DNA of 64,000 bases, taken from positions 129,501-193,500 of the forward strand of contig CANKZM010000004.1 in assembly GCA_947488305.1 (NCBI GenBank). The letters are read 5' to 3'. Source of the stretch: an uncultured Roseobacter sp. (lineage in GTDB: Bacteria; Pseudomonadota; Alphaproteobacteria; Rhodobacterales; Rhodobacteraceae). Positions 54,566-56,293 of the stretch are shown here, piece after piece (position 1 is the stretch's first letter; every line of letters begins with the position of its first letter). The position numbers were made by a program, and so were the translations under genes. The notes under the pieces were generated by a model. The model searched no databases. It was not told where the DNA came from and saw only the letters and a program-made list of their open reading frames with translations.

Positions 54566-55354
54566 TCAAAGGTCAAAAGTCGCAAAAACCGGAGCATGAT
54601 CGCTGGGTTTTTCCCAACCGCGCACGTCTCGTAGAATCCGGCTGTTGTGGCCTGCGTTCGCGATATCAGGCGTGGCCCAGATATGATCGAGCCTGCGGCC
54701 CTTGTCCGCCGCATCCCAATCGCGCGCGCGATAGGACCACCAGCTGTAAAGACGCCCTTCGGGTATATCTTTGCGCGTGATATCAACCCAACCACCGGCA
54801 TCCTGAGTTTCGGCCAGATGTTCAACCTCAATGGGTGTGTGGCTGACCACTTTCAACAGTTTCTTGTGATCCCAAACATCGTCCTCACGAGGTGCGATGT
54901 TCAAATCCCCGACCAGGATCGAGCTTTTCATCTGTTGCGCGTGAAACCAGTCCCGCATGCCGGTGAGGTAGTCCAACTTCTGCCCAAATTTCTCGTTTAC
55001 GGTGCGATCCGCGACATCGCCCCCAGCCGGAACATAGAAGTTATGCACCGTGACACCGTTCTCGAGCCGTCCCGCAATATGGCGGGCATGCCCCAAATCA
55101 GCAAAATCCTCTGAGGCCGCTTCTTCCATCGGAATCTTCGACAGGATTGCCACGCCGTTGTAGCCCTTTTGGCCCCTCGCCACGACATGACTGTATCCCG
55201 CAGCGGCAAATGCATCGAGTGGCATTTTCTCGACCGGGCTCTTGCATTCCTGCAGGCACAGAACGTCAGGCGCTTCCTCAGACATGAGCTTGAGCACGAT
55301 GCCTTCGCGCAGTCGCACCGAATTGATGTTCCATGTGGCCAATGAAAACGCCAT
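54566..55354 (-). CDS. xthA: Exodeoxyribonuclease III
   Basis: Exonuclease III repairs abasic sites and removes 3' nucleotides from duplex DNA. The 262-aa enzyme has the family motifs in order: LATWNINSVR, LCLQECKSPVEKMP, GVAILSK, GDLNIAPREDDVWDHKKL, RLDHIWATPDI and the final SDHAPVFATFDL with the catalytic His. The metal-binding Glu and Asp residues are intact. It is preceded by a ~250-bp gap that contains a candidate sRNA. Confidence 0.96.
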   Translation of the reverse strand: MAFSLATWNINSVRLREGIVLKLMSEEAPDVLCLQECKSPVEKMPLDAFAAAGYSHVVARGQKGYNGVAILSKIPMEEAASEDFADLGHARHIAGRLENGVTVHNFYVPAGGDVADRTVNEKFGQKLDYLTGMRDWFHAQQMKSSILVGDLNIAPREDDVWDHKKLLKVVSHTPIEVEHLAETQDAGGWVDITRKDIPEGRLYSWWSYRARDWDAADKGRRLDHIWATPDIANAGHNSRILRDVRGWEKPSDHAPVFATFDL

Positions 55355-55469: not shown

Positions 55470-55497
55470 AAAAAAAGACCGGGCACGAGGCCCGGCC
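55470..55497 (-). terminator. Rho-independent terminator on the minus strand
   Basis: On the minus strand GGCCGGGC pairs with GCCCGGTC (one G-U pair) around CTCGT and is followed by seven T residues. It lies 110 bases after the response-regulator stop and 116 bases before xthA, so it fits best as the end of the candidate small RNA. Confidence 0.85.
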
Positions 55498-55542
55498 AAG
55501 TCCAACAGGGAGGTGCATGTCATAACCCGGACATGCGCGGGT
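55470..55542 (-). ncRNA. Candidate FNR-regulated small RNA with anti-Shine-Dalgarno motif, ~73 nt
   Basis: A predicted transcript starts near 55542 (A on the minus strand) and ends at the U-tract at 55470. It folds into a first stem (GCATGTC / GACATGC, 55536-55515), a single-stranded linker carrying ACCTCCC (anti-Shine-Dalgarno, 55514-55508), and a terminator stem. A -10-like TAGATT lies at 55554-55549 and an FNR-type box is centred 41.5 nt before the start. No conserved protein lies in this frame. Rhodobacterales are known to encode small RNAs with exposed CCUCC-type loops (CcsR family). This gene is a prediction without any expression data. Confidence 0.5.
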
Positions 55543-55576
55543 ACTGTAAATCTACCTAGATATGGTTAATTTAGTC

Positions 55577-55590
55577 TTGATTTGGGTCAA
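55577..55590 (-). promoter_or_regulatory. FNR/Crp-type box (TTGAC-CCAA-ATCAA)
   Basis: The 14-bp site TTGACCCAAATCAA on the minus strand matches the FNR-family half-sites TTGAY-N4-RTCAA completely. Its centre (55583.5) is 41.5 nt from the predicted RNA start at 55542, the standard position for activation as a class II site. It lies downstream of the response-regulator stop. In Rhodobacterales the FnrL and Dnr-type regulators use this motif. Whether this site is bound is not known. Confidence 0.5.
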
Positions 55591-55606
55591 GAACATTAAA
55601 AAACCA

Positions 55607-56293
55607 TCACGCCATTAACCTATATCCACCAGATTCGGTCACAAGAAGGCGGGCATTGGACGGATCTGGTTCTATTTTCTGGCGCAAGCGGTAAATATGT
55701 GTTTCCAGCGTGTGGGTCGTTACGCCGGCATTATACCCCCAGACTTCATGTAAGAGGACATCGCGCGGCACCACACCTTCGGTCGAACGATAAAGAAACT
55801 TCAGAATGTTGGTCTCTTTTTCGGTCAGCCGGATTTTCTTGTCATCTTCGGTAATCAAAGTCTTCATGGACGGCTTGAAGGTGTATGGCCCAAGCTGGAA
55901 AACGGCATCTTCGGATTGTTCATGTTGGCGCAATTGCGCGCGAATACGCGCCAAAAGAACCGGAAACTTGAAAGGTTTGCTCACATAATCGTTGGCGCCA
56001 GCATCAAGGCCAAGGATCGTATCCGCGTCACTATCATGCCCGGTCAGCATCAAGATCGGGCTTTTGACCCCTTGTTTGCGCATCAAGCGGCAAAGTTCGC
56101 GCCCATCGGTATCAGGCAGTCCAACGTCCAGTATGACAAGGTCGTAAATGGCCTCTTTGGCGCGAACCATGGCGTCCGACCCATTGGCCGCTTCAAAGAC
56201 ATCGAAGTCTTCGGTCATGATCAACTGTTCGCTCAGCGCGTCCCGCAGATCATCATCATCGTCAACCAGCAGGATTTTCTTCATCTGTGCCAT
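55607..56293 (-). CDS. OmpR/PhoB family response regulator
   Basis: This 228-aa two-component response regulator has an N-terminal receiver domain with KKILLVDDDDDLRDAL (acidic cluster), the phosphorylated Asp in DLVILDVGLPDTDG (about D54), the Thr in ILMLTGHD and the Lys in DYVSKPF. The C-terminal winged-helix (LTEKETNILKFLYR, VVPRDVLLHEVWGYNAGVTTHTLETHIYRLRQKI) binds DNA. No sensor kinase gene is adjacent. GGGAG lies 9 bases before the ATG. It is divergent from ribA. Confidence 0.94.
   Translation of the reverse strand: MAQMKKILLVDDDDDLRDALSEQLIMTEDFDVFEAANGSDAMVRAKEAIYDLVILDVGLPDTDGRELCRLMRKQGVKSPILMLTGHDSDADTILGLDAGANDYVSKPFKFPVLLARIRAQLRQHEQSEDAVFQLGPYTFKPSMKTLITEDDKKIRLTEKETNILKFLYRSTEGVVPRDVLLHEVWGYNAGVTTHTLETHIYRLRQKIEPDPSNARLLVTESGGYRLMA

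Follow-up and report, generated by a model that had tools for sequence, protein, structure and literature searches.

A possible FNR-type promoter at the 5′ end of the small RNA SorX in a Roseobacter-group bacterium, and its recurrence among relatives

The interval between xthA and a response-regulator gene in the window, that is, the whole 64,000-nt stretch of DNA from an uncultured Roseobacter sp. that was analysed here, raises the question of which small RNA it encodes and whether this RNA could be made from a promoter of its own. An earlier note on this DNA had placed a putative new small RNA between the two genes, and the siting is borne out by the gene order on the minus strand, which runs from the response regulator through an FNR-type box, a −10 hexamer and SorX with its terminator to xthA. 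The features are as follows.

55607–56293, minus strand: OmpR/PhoB-type response-regulator gene, upstream of SorX; counterpart of RSP_0847, with orthology taken from synteny
55577–55590, minus strand: FNR/Dnr-type box TTGACCCAAATCAA (TTGAC-CCAA-ATCAA), centred at 55583.5
55549–55554, minus strand: −10 hexamer TAGATT, at box start +36, positions −12 to −7
55542, minus strand: transcription start predicted from geometry; the box centre lies 41.5 nt upstream of it and the Rfam 5′ end of SorX 1 nt upstream
55471–55543, minus strand: SorX small RNA, full-length RF02784 match (cmscan)
55538–55541, minus strand: 5′ tail CCCG, which can pair with the loop CGGG (55529–55526) in a possible H-type pseudoknot
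55515–55536, minus strand: first hairpin, 7 bp with an 8-nt loop (stem 55536–55530 with 55521–55515)
55500–55514, minus strand: seed or linker ACCUCCCUGUUGGAC between the two hairpins, from 30 aligned SorX sequences
55470–55497, minus strand: intrinsic terminator, 8-bp G+C-rich stem and U7, from fold and sequence
54566–55354, minus strand: xthA (exodeoxyribonuclease III; TIGR00195, 185.3 bits, cut-off 182.55), downstream of the SorX terminator

Identity and structure of the RNA

The RNA at 55543–55471 (minus strand) is SorX, Rfam family RF02784, with 95 bits against a gathering cut-off of 46.6 and a match over model positions 1–73 of 73, and it is the sole above-threshold Rfam match in the whole window (cmscan). 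It is the SorX ortholog of a Roseobacter-group alphaproteobacterium. The small RNA of the earlier note is therefore real and conserved but is not new, being already known under this name. In Rhodobacter sphaeroides, SorX, formerly RSs2461 (PMC5036791), is described as a 75-nt product of RNase E cleavage in the 3′ UTR of the mRNA for the OmpR-type regulator RSP_0847, with which it is co-transcribed from an RpoHI/HII promoter (PMC3320616); RpoE, RpoHI and RpoHII are all named in connection with it in the literature, and a review counts it among the sRNAs processed from mRNA 3′ UTRs (PMC5502269). The R. sphaeroides RNA resembles that of the window in its full-length covariance-model match, its seed, its hairpins and its site behind an OmpR-type regulator gene. 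In the window this gene lies upstream on the same strand, and its product matches OmpR/PhoB-type models, none of the 25 models listed being over its own cut-off.

The window sequence is distinct from SorY (RF02651), reaching 31.5 bits against a gathering cut-off of 111. Exposed CCUCC motifs are a property of the CcsR or cuckoo RNAs as well. SorY shares the ACCUCCCUGUUGGACUU core with the window RNA, differs from it in the hairpins and has a promoter of its own (PMC6238624).

SorX-family matches at E 0.001 or better are present in 282 of the 295 genomes of the window's family, and matches over the cut-off in 232. The source genome of the window holds four, two of them over the cut-off. The second of its SorX-family RNAs (L002, C3:335355-335438, 60 bits) has an identical seed and no FNR box; upstream of it stands CTTGATCG...CACCCTAATT, which recurs as CTTGAT...CACCCTATTT in the genus loci L257 and L259 and is perhaps a stress-sigma promoter. 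In other genomes, paired SorX-family copies lie about 215–640 nt apart from start to start (G283:C5:242070/242285, G022:C183:9526/9749 and G190:C76:17455/18098).

The RNA that the earlier note had described, about 73 nt long with a 7-bp stem, a single-stranded CCUCCC linker and a U7 terminator, is present at 55543–55471 on the minus strand. Its 73-nt strand folds better than shuffled sequences (z −2.05, 6 of 200 as good); the fold of the plus strand at 55530–55630 is no better than chance (z −0.25). The linker ACCUCCCUGUUGGAC contains a 2-bp pair in the minimum-energy fold and is open in the centroid fold, and among 30 aligned SorX sequences it is invariant except for its first and last bases. 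Covariation of both stems, which had been proposed as a check, supports both hairpins in the same alignment, in which 99.6% of cells are paired, 9 of the 15 pairs changed on both sides, and none of 500 shuffles scored as high on any of five measures. Both-side changes occur at all 7 pairs of the first hairpin (30 sequences).

The 5′ tail CCCG may in addition pair with the loop of the first hairpin. The connecting stretches of 1–2, 0 and about 4 nt correspond to the shape of an H-type pseudoknot. At least 4 contiguous tail–loop pairs can form in 124 of 156 distinct sequences, whereas permuted tails gave 87 on average and 98 at most (500 rounds; 10 of 166 sequences lacking the stem were dropped, and the permutation ignores relatedness). 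The single columns, tested after 20 of 151 sequences had been dropped, were not significant, the inner one being paired in 86 of 131 sequences (permutation mean 86.1) and the outer one in 58 of 130 (mean 51.5, maximum 66), and the structure line of the Rfam SorX alignment has no tail–loop pairing. Because only the combined length test is positive, the pseudoknot is possible and the evidence for it suggestive only.

The putative promoter and its recurrence in relatives

The sequence in front of SorX has the layout of a class II FNR promoter, with a box similar to TTGAT-N4-ATCAA centred at −41.5 and a −10 hexamer. The box differs from TTGAT-N4-ATCAA by C for T at its fifth base. The box, the TAGATT hexamer and the start 41.5 nt downstream all lie where the earlier note had put them, on the minus strand, a strand that the note had left unnamed. 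The possibility that TTGAC in the box serves as a −35 hexamer was ruled out because the −10 hexamer would then be 30 nt away. A sigma-70 consensus scan at SorX found no promoter (1.1 expected); this neither supports nor refutes the proposed one, because an activator-dependent promoter without a −35 element would escape such a scan. Counted by itself, the palindrome TTGA-N6-TCAA is not in excess: the 64 kb of the window contain it once, with 1.28 expected. The location of the box and its repeated appearance in relatives, by contrast, go beyond chance.

Recurrence was read at 193 loci in a sample biased towards the best-scoring matches, namely the four SorX-family matches of the source genome with 109 places from the best-scoring part of the family-wide list (L001–L113) and the best 80 among the regulator matches listed (L114–L193); 43 were dropped for want of the core word or of a regulator C-terminus within 350 nt before it. 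Among 147 distinct regulator–SorX intervals from these best matches listed, widened by 20 nt upstream, a strict box is present in 57 (letter shuffles, 0.13) and a strict box with TA at exactly box +36 in 43 (shuffles, 0.015). A further 19 of the 147 have a one-mismatch box, 10 of them with TA at box +36 (shuffles, 3.6 and 0.19), while 71 have no box at 0 or 1 mismatch, and the TA is missing behind 14 of the 57 strict boxes. Unwidened, the count is 56 of 145 intervals, again among the best matches listed, against 0.23 expected and a maximum of 2 in 300 rounds of dinucleotide shuffles, and each of eleven control palindromes built from the same half-site letters occurs in 0 or 1 of the 145. A position-weight scan, which was trained on the same strict boxes, added matches that were one-mismatch or weaker boxes already counted. 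Free of this selection of loci, the whole-genome pattern of a box followed after 52–82 nt by the seed was found in 50 of the 295 family genomes and its reversed control in none, the 50 being pattern matches in which SorX and paralogs are not separated.

The spacing of box and −10 hexamer recurs within the box-bearing intervals (best matches listed). TA at box +36, which corresponds to −12/−11 for a box at −41.5, occurs in 42 of the 56, and every other offset from 25 to 55 in at most 11. The distance from box to seed is 77–96 nt in 51 of the 56 and 50–52, 70 or 75 nt in the other 5; in 38 it is 77–81 nt, which would bring +1 to about 3 nt or less from a 5′ end set 30 nt before the seed. Because the spacing of box and −10 hexamer recurs while the distance to the seed varies, the two appear to form one unit, a class II FNR promoter. 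The class II activator spacing that the earlier note had recognized is supported by this recurrence and by published FnrL ChIP-seq at RSs2461, which is considered below.

The earlier note had also looked to close relatives for conservation of the box together with the CCUCCC linker. The CCUCCC core is conserved, as expected; the strict box holds up less well, since the strict box–seed pattern occurs in only 5 of the 19 genomes of the window's genus, and 11 of the 16 genus genomes in which the regulator–SorX interval was read have no box. Among named organisms, strict boxes are found in Ruegeria, several Roseovarius, a Shimia MAG, Marimonas lutisalis, Aquicoccus and a Paracoccus MAG; Sulfitobacter brevis, Yoonia, Maritimibacter and Haematobacter are without one. 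On a regulator-gene tree of 80 named loci and the window (24 rows with the box, 39 without it and 18 in which no seed was found), box state requires at least 14 changes whether or not the 18 seedless rows are counted; with these rows counted, shuffled labels gave a mean of 20.7 changes and in none of 500 rounds as few. The tree is weak, 28 of its 78 inner branches being well supported and forcing only 5 changes. The label shuffles and the minimum number of changes suggest that the box is clustered on the tree and has probably been gained or lost several times.

Other elements were seen in the same interval. The motif TTAACC, often as TTAACCAT, which we take to resemble a CtrA half-site, lies at 55569–55562 (minus strand) in the window and in 15 of 16 regulator–SorX intervals of the genus (0.23 expected from letter shuffles), compared with 7 of 145 in the wider set. 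The genus loci concerned are L253–L256, L258, L260–L268, L223 and L247. Where an FNR box is present, the motif stands in the promoter spacer (4 of 5), and where the box is absent it stands further upstream. By eye, a sequence similar to TATTGTTGCC-GATTC was noticed behind the regulator stop codon in the box-less intervals L071, L080, L088, L091, L105 and L190, with TATATA after it in some; it is perhaps another SorX promoter. A block like GTAAGGAATACC-GACTTATTTG was likewise noticed by eye soon after the regulator stop codon in L039, L083, L108, L115, L036, L058 and L090, in 4 of these 7 loci directly upstream of a one-mismatch FNR box.

Proposed routes to SorX and candidate regulators of the box

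We consider it likely, on the grounds of sequence and synteny, that this SorX ortholog has two routes of synthesis, mRNA processing and a class II promoter under direct control of FnrL or a Dnr-type regulator. By the first route, SorX would, as in R. sphaeroides, be released from the response-regulator mRNA at its 3′ end, as synteny and RNA identity indicate. By the second, FnrL at low oxygen, or a Dnr-type regulator in the presence of NO, would act from the box at −41.5 between the regulator stop codon and SorX and initiate the transcript no more than about 1 nt from the mature 5′ end. With such a start, the primary transcript would be SorX itself and would need no processing, so that the promoter-born RNA would equal mature SorX. 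In either case the RNA would pair with target mRNAs through its linker.

The direct evidence for an FNR-type protein at SorX comes from R. sphaeroides. By ChIP-seq, Imam et al. (2014) located FnrL at the putative promoters of RSs0019 and RSs2461, adding that their arrays could not establish regulation of these RNAs (PMC4263372). Because RSs2461 is SorX, FnrL binding at the SorX ortholog is already published; in the parts of the literature available to this comparison, which did not extend to Peng et al. (2016), it is reported in PMC4263372 only, and no later SorX paper was found that takes it up. Genome G051 looks like that of R. sphaeroides 2.4.1, with SorX at 2,598,225 against a published mature 5′ end at 2,598,224. 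Its box, TTGCGTGAGATCAA, has one mismatch and lies across the regulator stop codon, with TATAAA at box +36, and the start predicted from it lies about 29 nt upstream of the mature SorX end. The window differs in its perfect box and in a predicted start that coincides with the mature end, and the R. sphaeroides RNA differs in being described as a processing product. The 5′ end of the published 116-nt pre-SorX, at 2,598,182, lies about 14 nt further upstream than the predicted class II start of R. sphaeroides and hence does not confirm it.

Which protein uses the box in the window is a separate matter. The source genome encodes FnrL (NF045989, 455.3 bits, cut-off 300), with an FNR-type box 31 nt before the fnrL ATG and an adjoining frame that resembles HemN/HemZ. 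Two more Crp/Fnr proteins are encoded next to each other, close to frames resembling NorE and ApbE. It is somewhat unlikely, though worth serious consideration, that one of the Crp/Fnr-family proteins other than FnrL (Dnr, responding to NO, or a CrpK-like protein) uses the box, in which case the signal would be NO or something else rather than low oxygen. The presence of the adjacent pair speaks for this, as does the description of the Dnr binding site as indistinguishable from an Anr/Fnr-like box (PMC5398030); the FnrL ChIP-seq site at the R. sphaeroides ortholog (PMC4263372) speaks against it, and RSs2461 is absent among the rows listed of the CrpK table.

A second alternative, which we regard as improbable, is that processing of the regulator mRNA is the sole source of SorX, the box being an evolutionary leftover or a site that is bound without effect. 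It would agree with the published RNase E processing from the RSP_0847 3′ UTR and RpoHI/HII co-transcription (PMC3320616 for the latter), and many relatives keep SorX without a box. A leftover, however, would hardly keep box and −10 hexamer at one spacing in so many relatives, and FnrL is bound at the R. sphaeroides ortholog in vivo (PMC4263372).

That the box instead drives xthA, with SorX merely crossed by that transcript, is very improbable and was rejected. In favour of this reading, xthA follows SorX on the same strand, both in the window and at 20 of the 23 named box loci. Against it, a terminator separates xthA from box and SorX, and the start of xthA is less than 350 nt beyond the regulator stop codon in only 8 of the 23; in 12 it lies at 677–2164 nt, and in 3 no xthA was seen in the flank examined. 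Because box and SorX stay together while this distance varies, the promoter probably belongs to SorX rather than to xthA.

Returning to the two-route proposal, a more far-reaching version of it can be offered tentatively, as possible but short of even chances. SorX would have two independent births that yield nearly the same molecule, one by an RNase E cut and one by an FnrL/Dnr start placed on the processing site. Both routes might keep to one 5′ end because a 5′-terminal pseudoknot would be closed by pairing of the initial CCCG with the hairpin loop. The promoter would turn over quickly, being of FNR type in many genera and accompanied or replaced by the TTAACCAT element in the window's genus, and one conserved RNA would thus be rewired to different signals.

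The proposed arrangement can be compared with other FNR-dependent sRNAs. For NarS of enterobacteria, FNR acts at the promoter of the mRNA, unlike the box of the window's SorX, which lies between the mRNA stop codon and the sRNA; FnrS of Escherichia coli is, to our knowledge, not a processed 3′ end of an mRNA. NarS is similar in being an sRNA at the 3′ end of an mRNA (narK) with FNR-dependent expression (PMC8139620). FnrS resembles the model in being under direct FNR control (PMC8139620, PMC4263372) and is without sequence similarity to RSs2461 (PMC4263372). PcrZ of R. sphaeroides is an sRNA of a related bacterium that depends on FnrL and PrrA (PMC8139620); unlike SorX, it is 136 nt long (PMC6238624) and has photosynthesis targets, and the effect of FnrL on it is perhaps indirect.

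Possible targets and implications

The earlier note had suggested that the CCUCCC linker could pair with ribosome-binding sites of target mRNAs, which would amount to a general anti-Shine-Dalgarno action; the published SorX target in R. sphaeroides is potA, of a polyamine transporter (PMC5502269), which SorX represses there. Ten of 142 potA-like matches were examined against the SorX linker, five of which (the minus-strand loci L208, L210, L211, L213 and L217) gave uninformative rows. Over the ABC ATPase loci, the best duplex energies per start were about −10 to −25 kcal/mol; L209, the only readable one of two matches over the potA cut-off, reached −19.7 and was not singled out by these energies, since of the four remaining readable loci three had lower values (−20.8, −22.7 and −25.2).

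A search for ACAGGGAGG-N3-9-ATG gave matches in 9 of 11 genomes. Of the 51 places listed, 30 were examined; 20 had a frame of at least 40 aa, among which there were two related pairs, one of small-gene copies within G298 and one of L228 with L243. L243 (source genome C4:472731-472748, minus strand) and L228 (G304:C14:61388-61404, from another family) encode small proteins with 31% identity (E 1e-14). In each of the two genes the ATG is preceded by ACAGGGAGG, which is complementary to the SorX seed. A Pfam search with the first 75 aa of the protein encoded at L243 gave no match.

At L225 (source genome C3:504613-504630, minus strand), a cytochrome c′ gene, identified by Pfam PF01322 on the first 75 aa, carries at its Shine-Dalgarno sequence 11 nt that are perfectly complementary to the SorX seed. 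Among 13 cytochrome c′ loci from 8 of the 19 genus genomes, whose start codons are uncertain, no general conservation of the seed complement was seen. Shuffles gave energies as low in 3 of 200 rounds for L274, in 22 of 200 at one start for L276 and in at least 42 of 200 for the others, the source gene (L275) having been scored at wrong starts.

SorX itself is known and its link to FnrL half-reported; what is new is the promoter anatomy, its conservation and turnover, and the possible 5′ pseudoknot. To an RNA that has until now been regarded as a processing product, the analysis adds a putative promoter of its own, of FNR type, that recurs in relatives. It suggests a low-oxygen switch of its own at the start of the mature RNA, common to many relatives, by which SorX may answer to oxygen as well as to damage. 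If this is true, the FnrL ChIP-seq site whose effect could not be established by Imam et al. (2014) would have a basis in sequence, and the oxidative-stress sRNA network would be joined to anaerobic regulation. Relatives with a box, a near-box or no box would form a natural series in which a processed 3′-UTR RNA becomes an independent gene, or the reverse, and, if the FNR promoter works, many of them would make SorX directly in response to low oxygen or NO.
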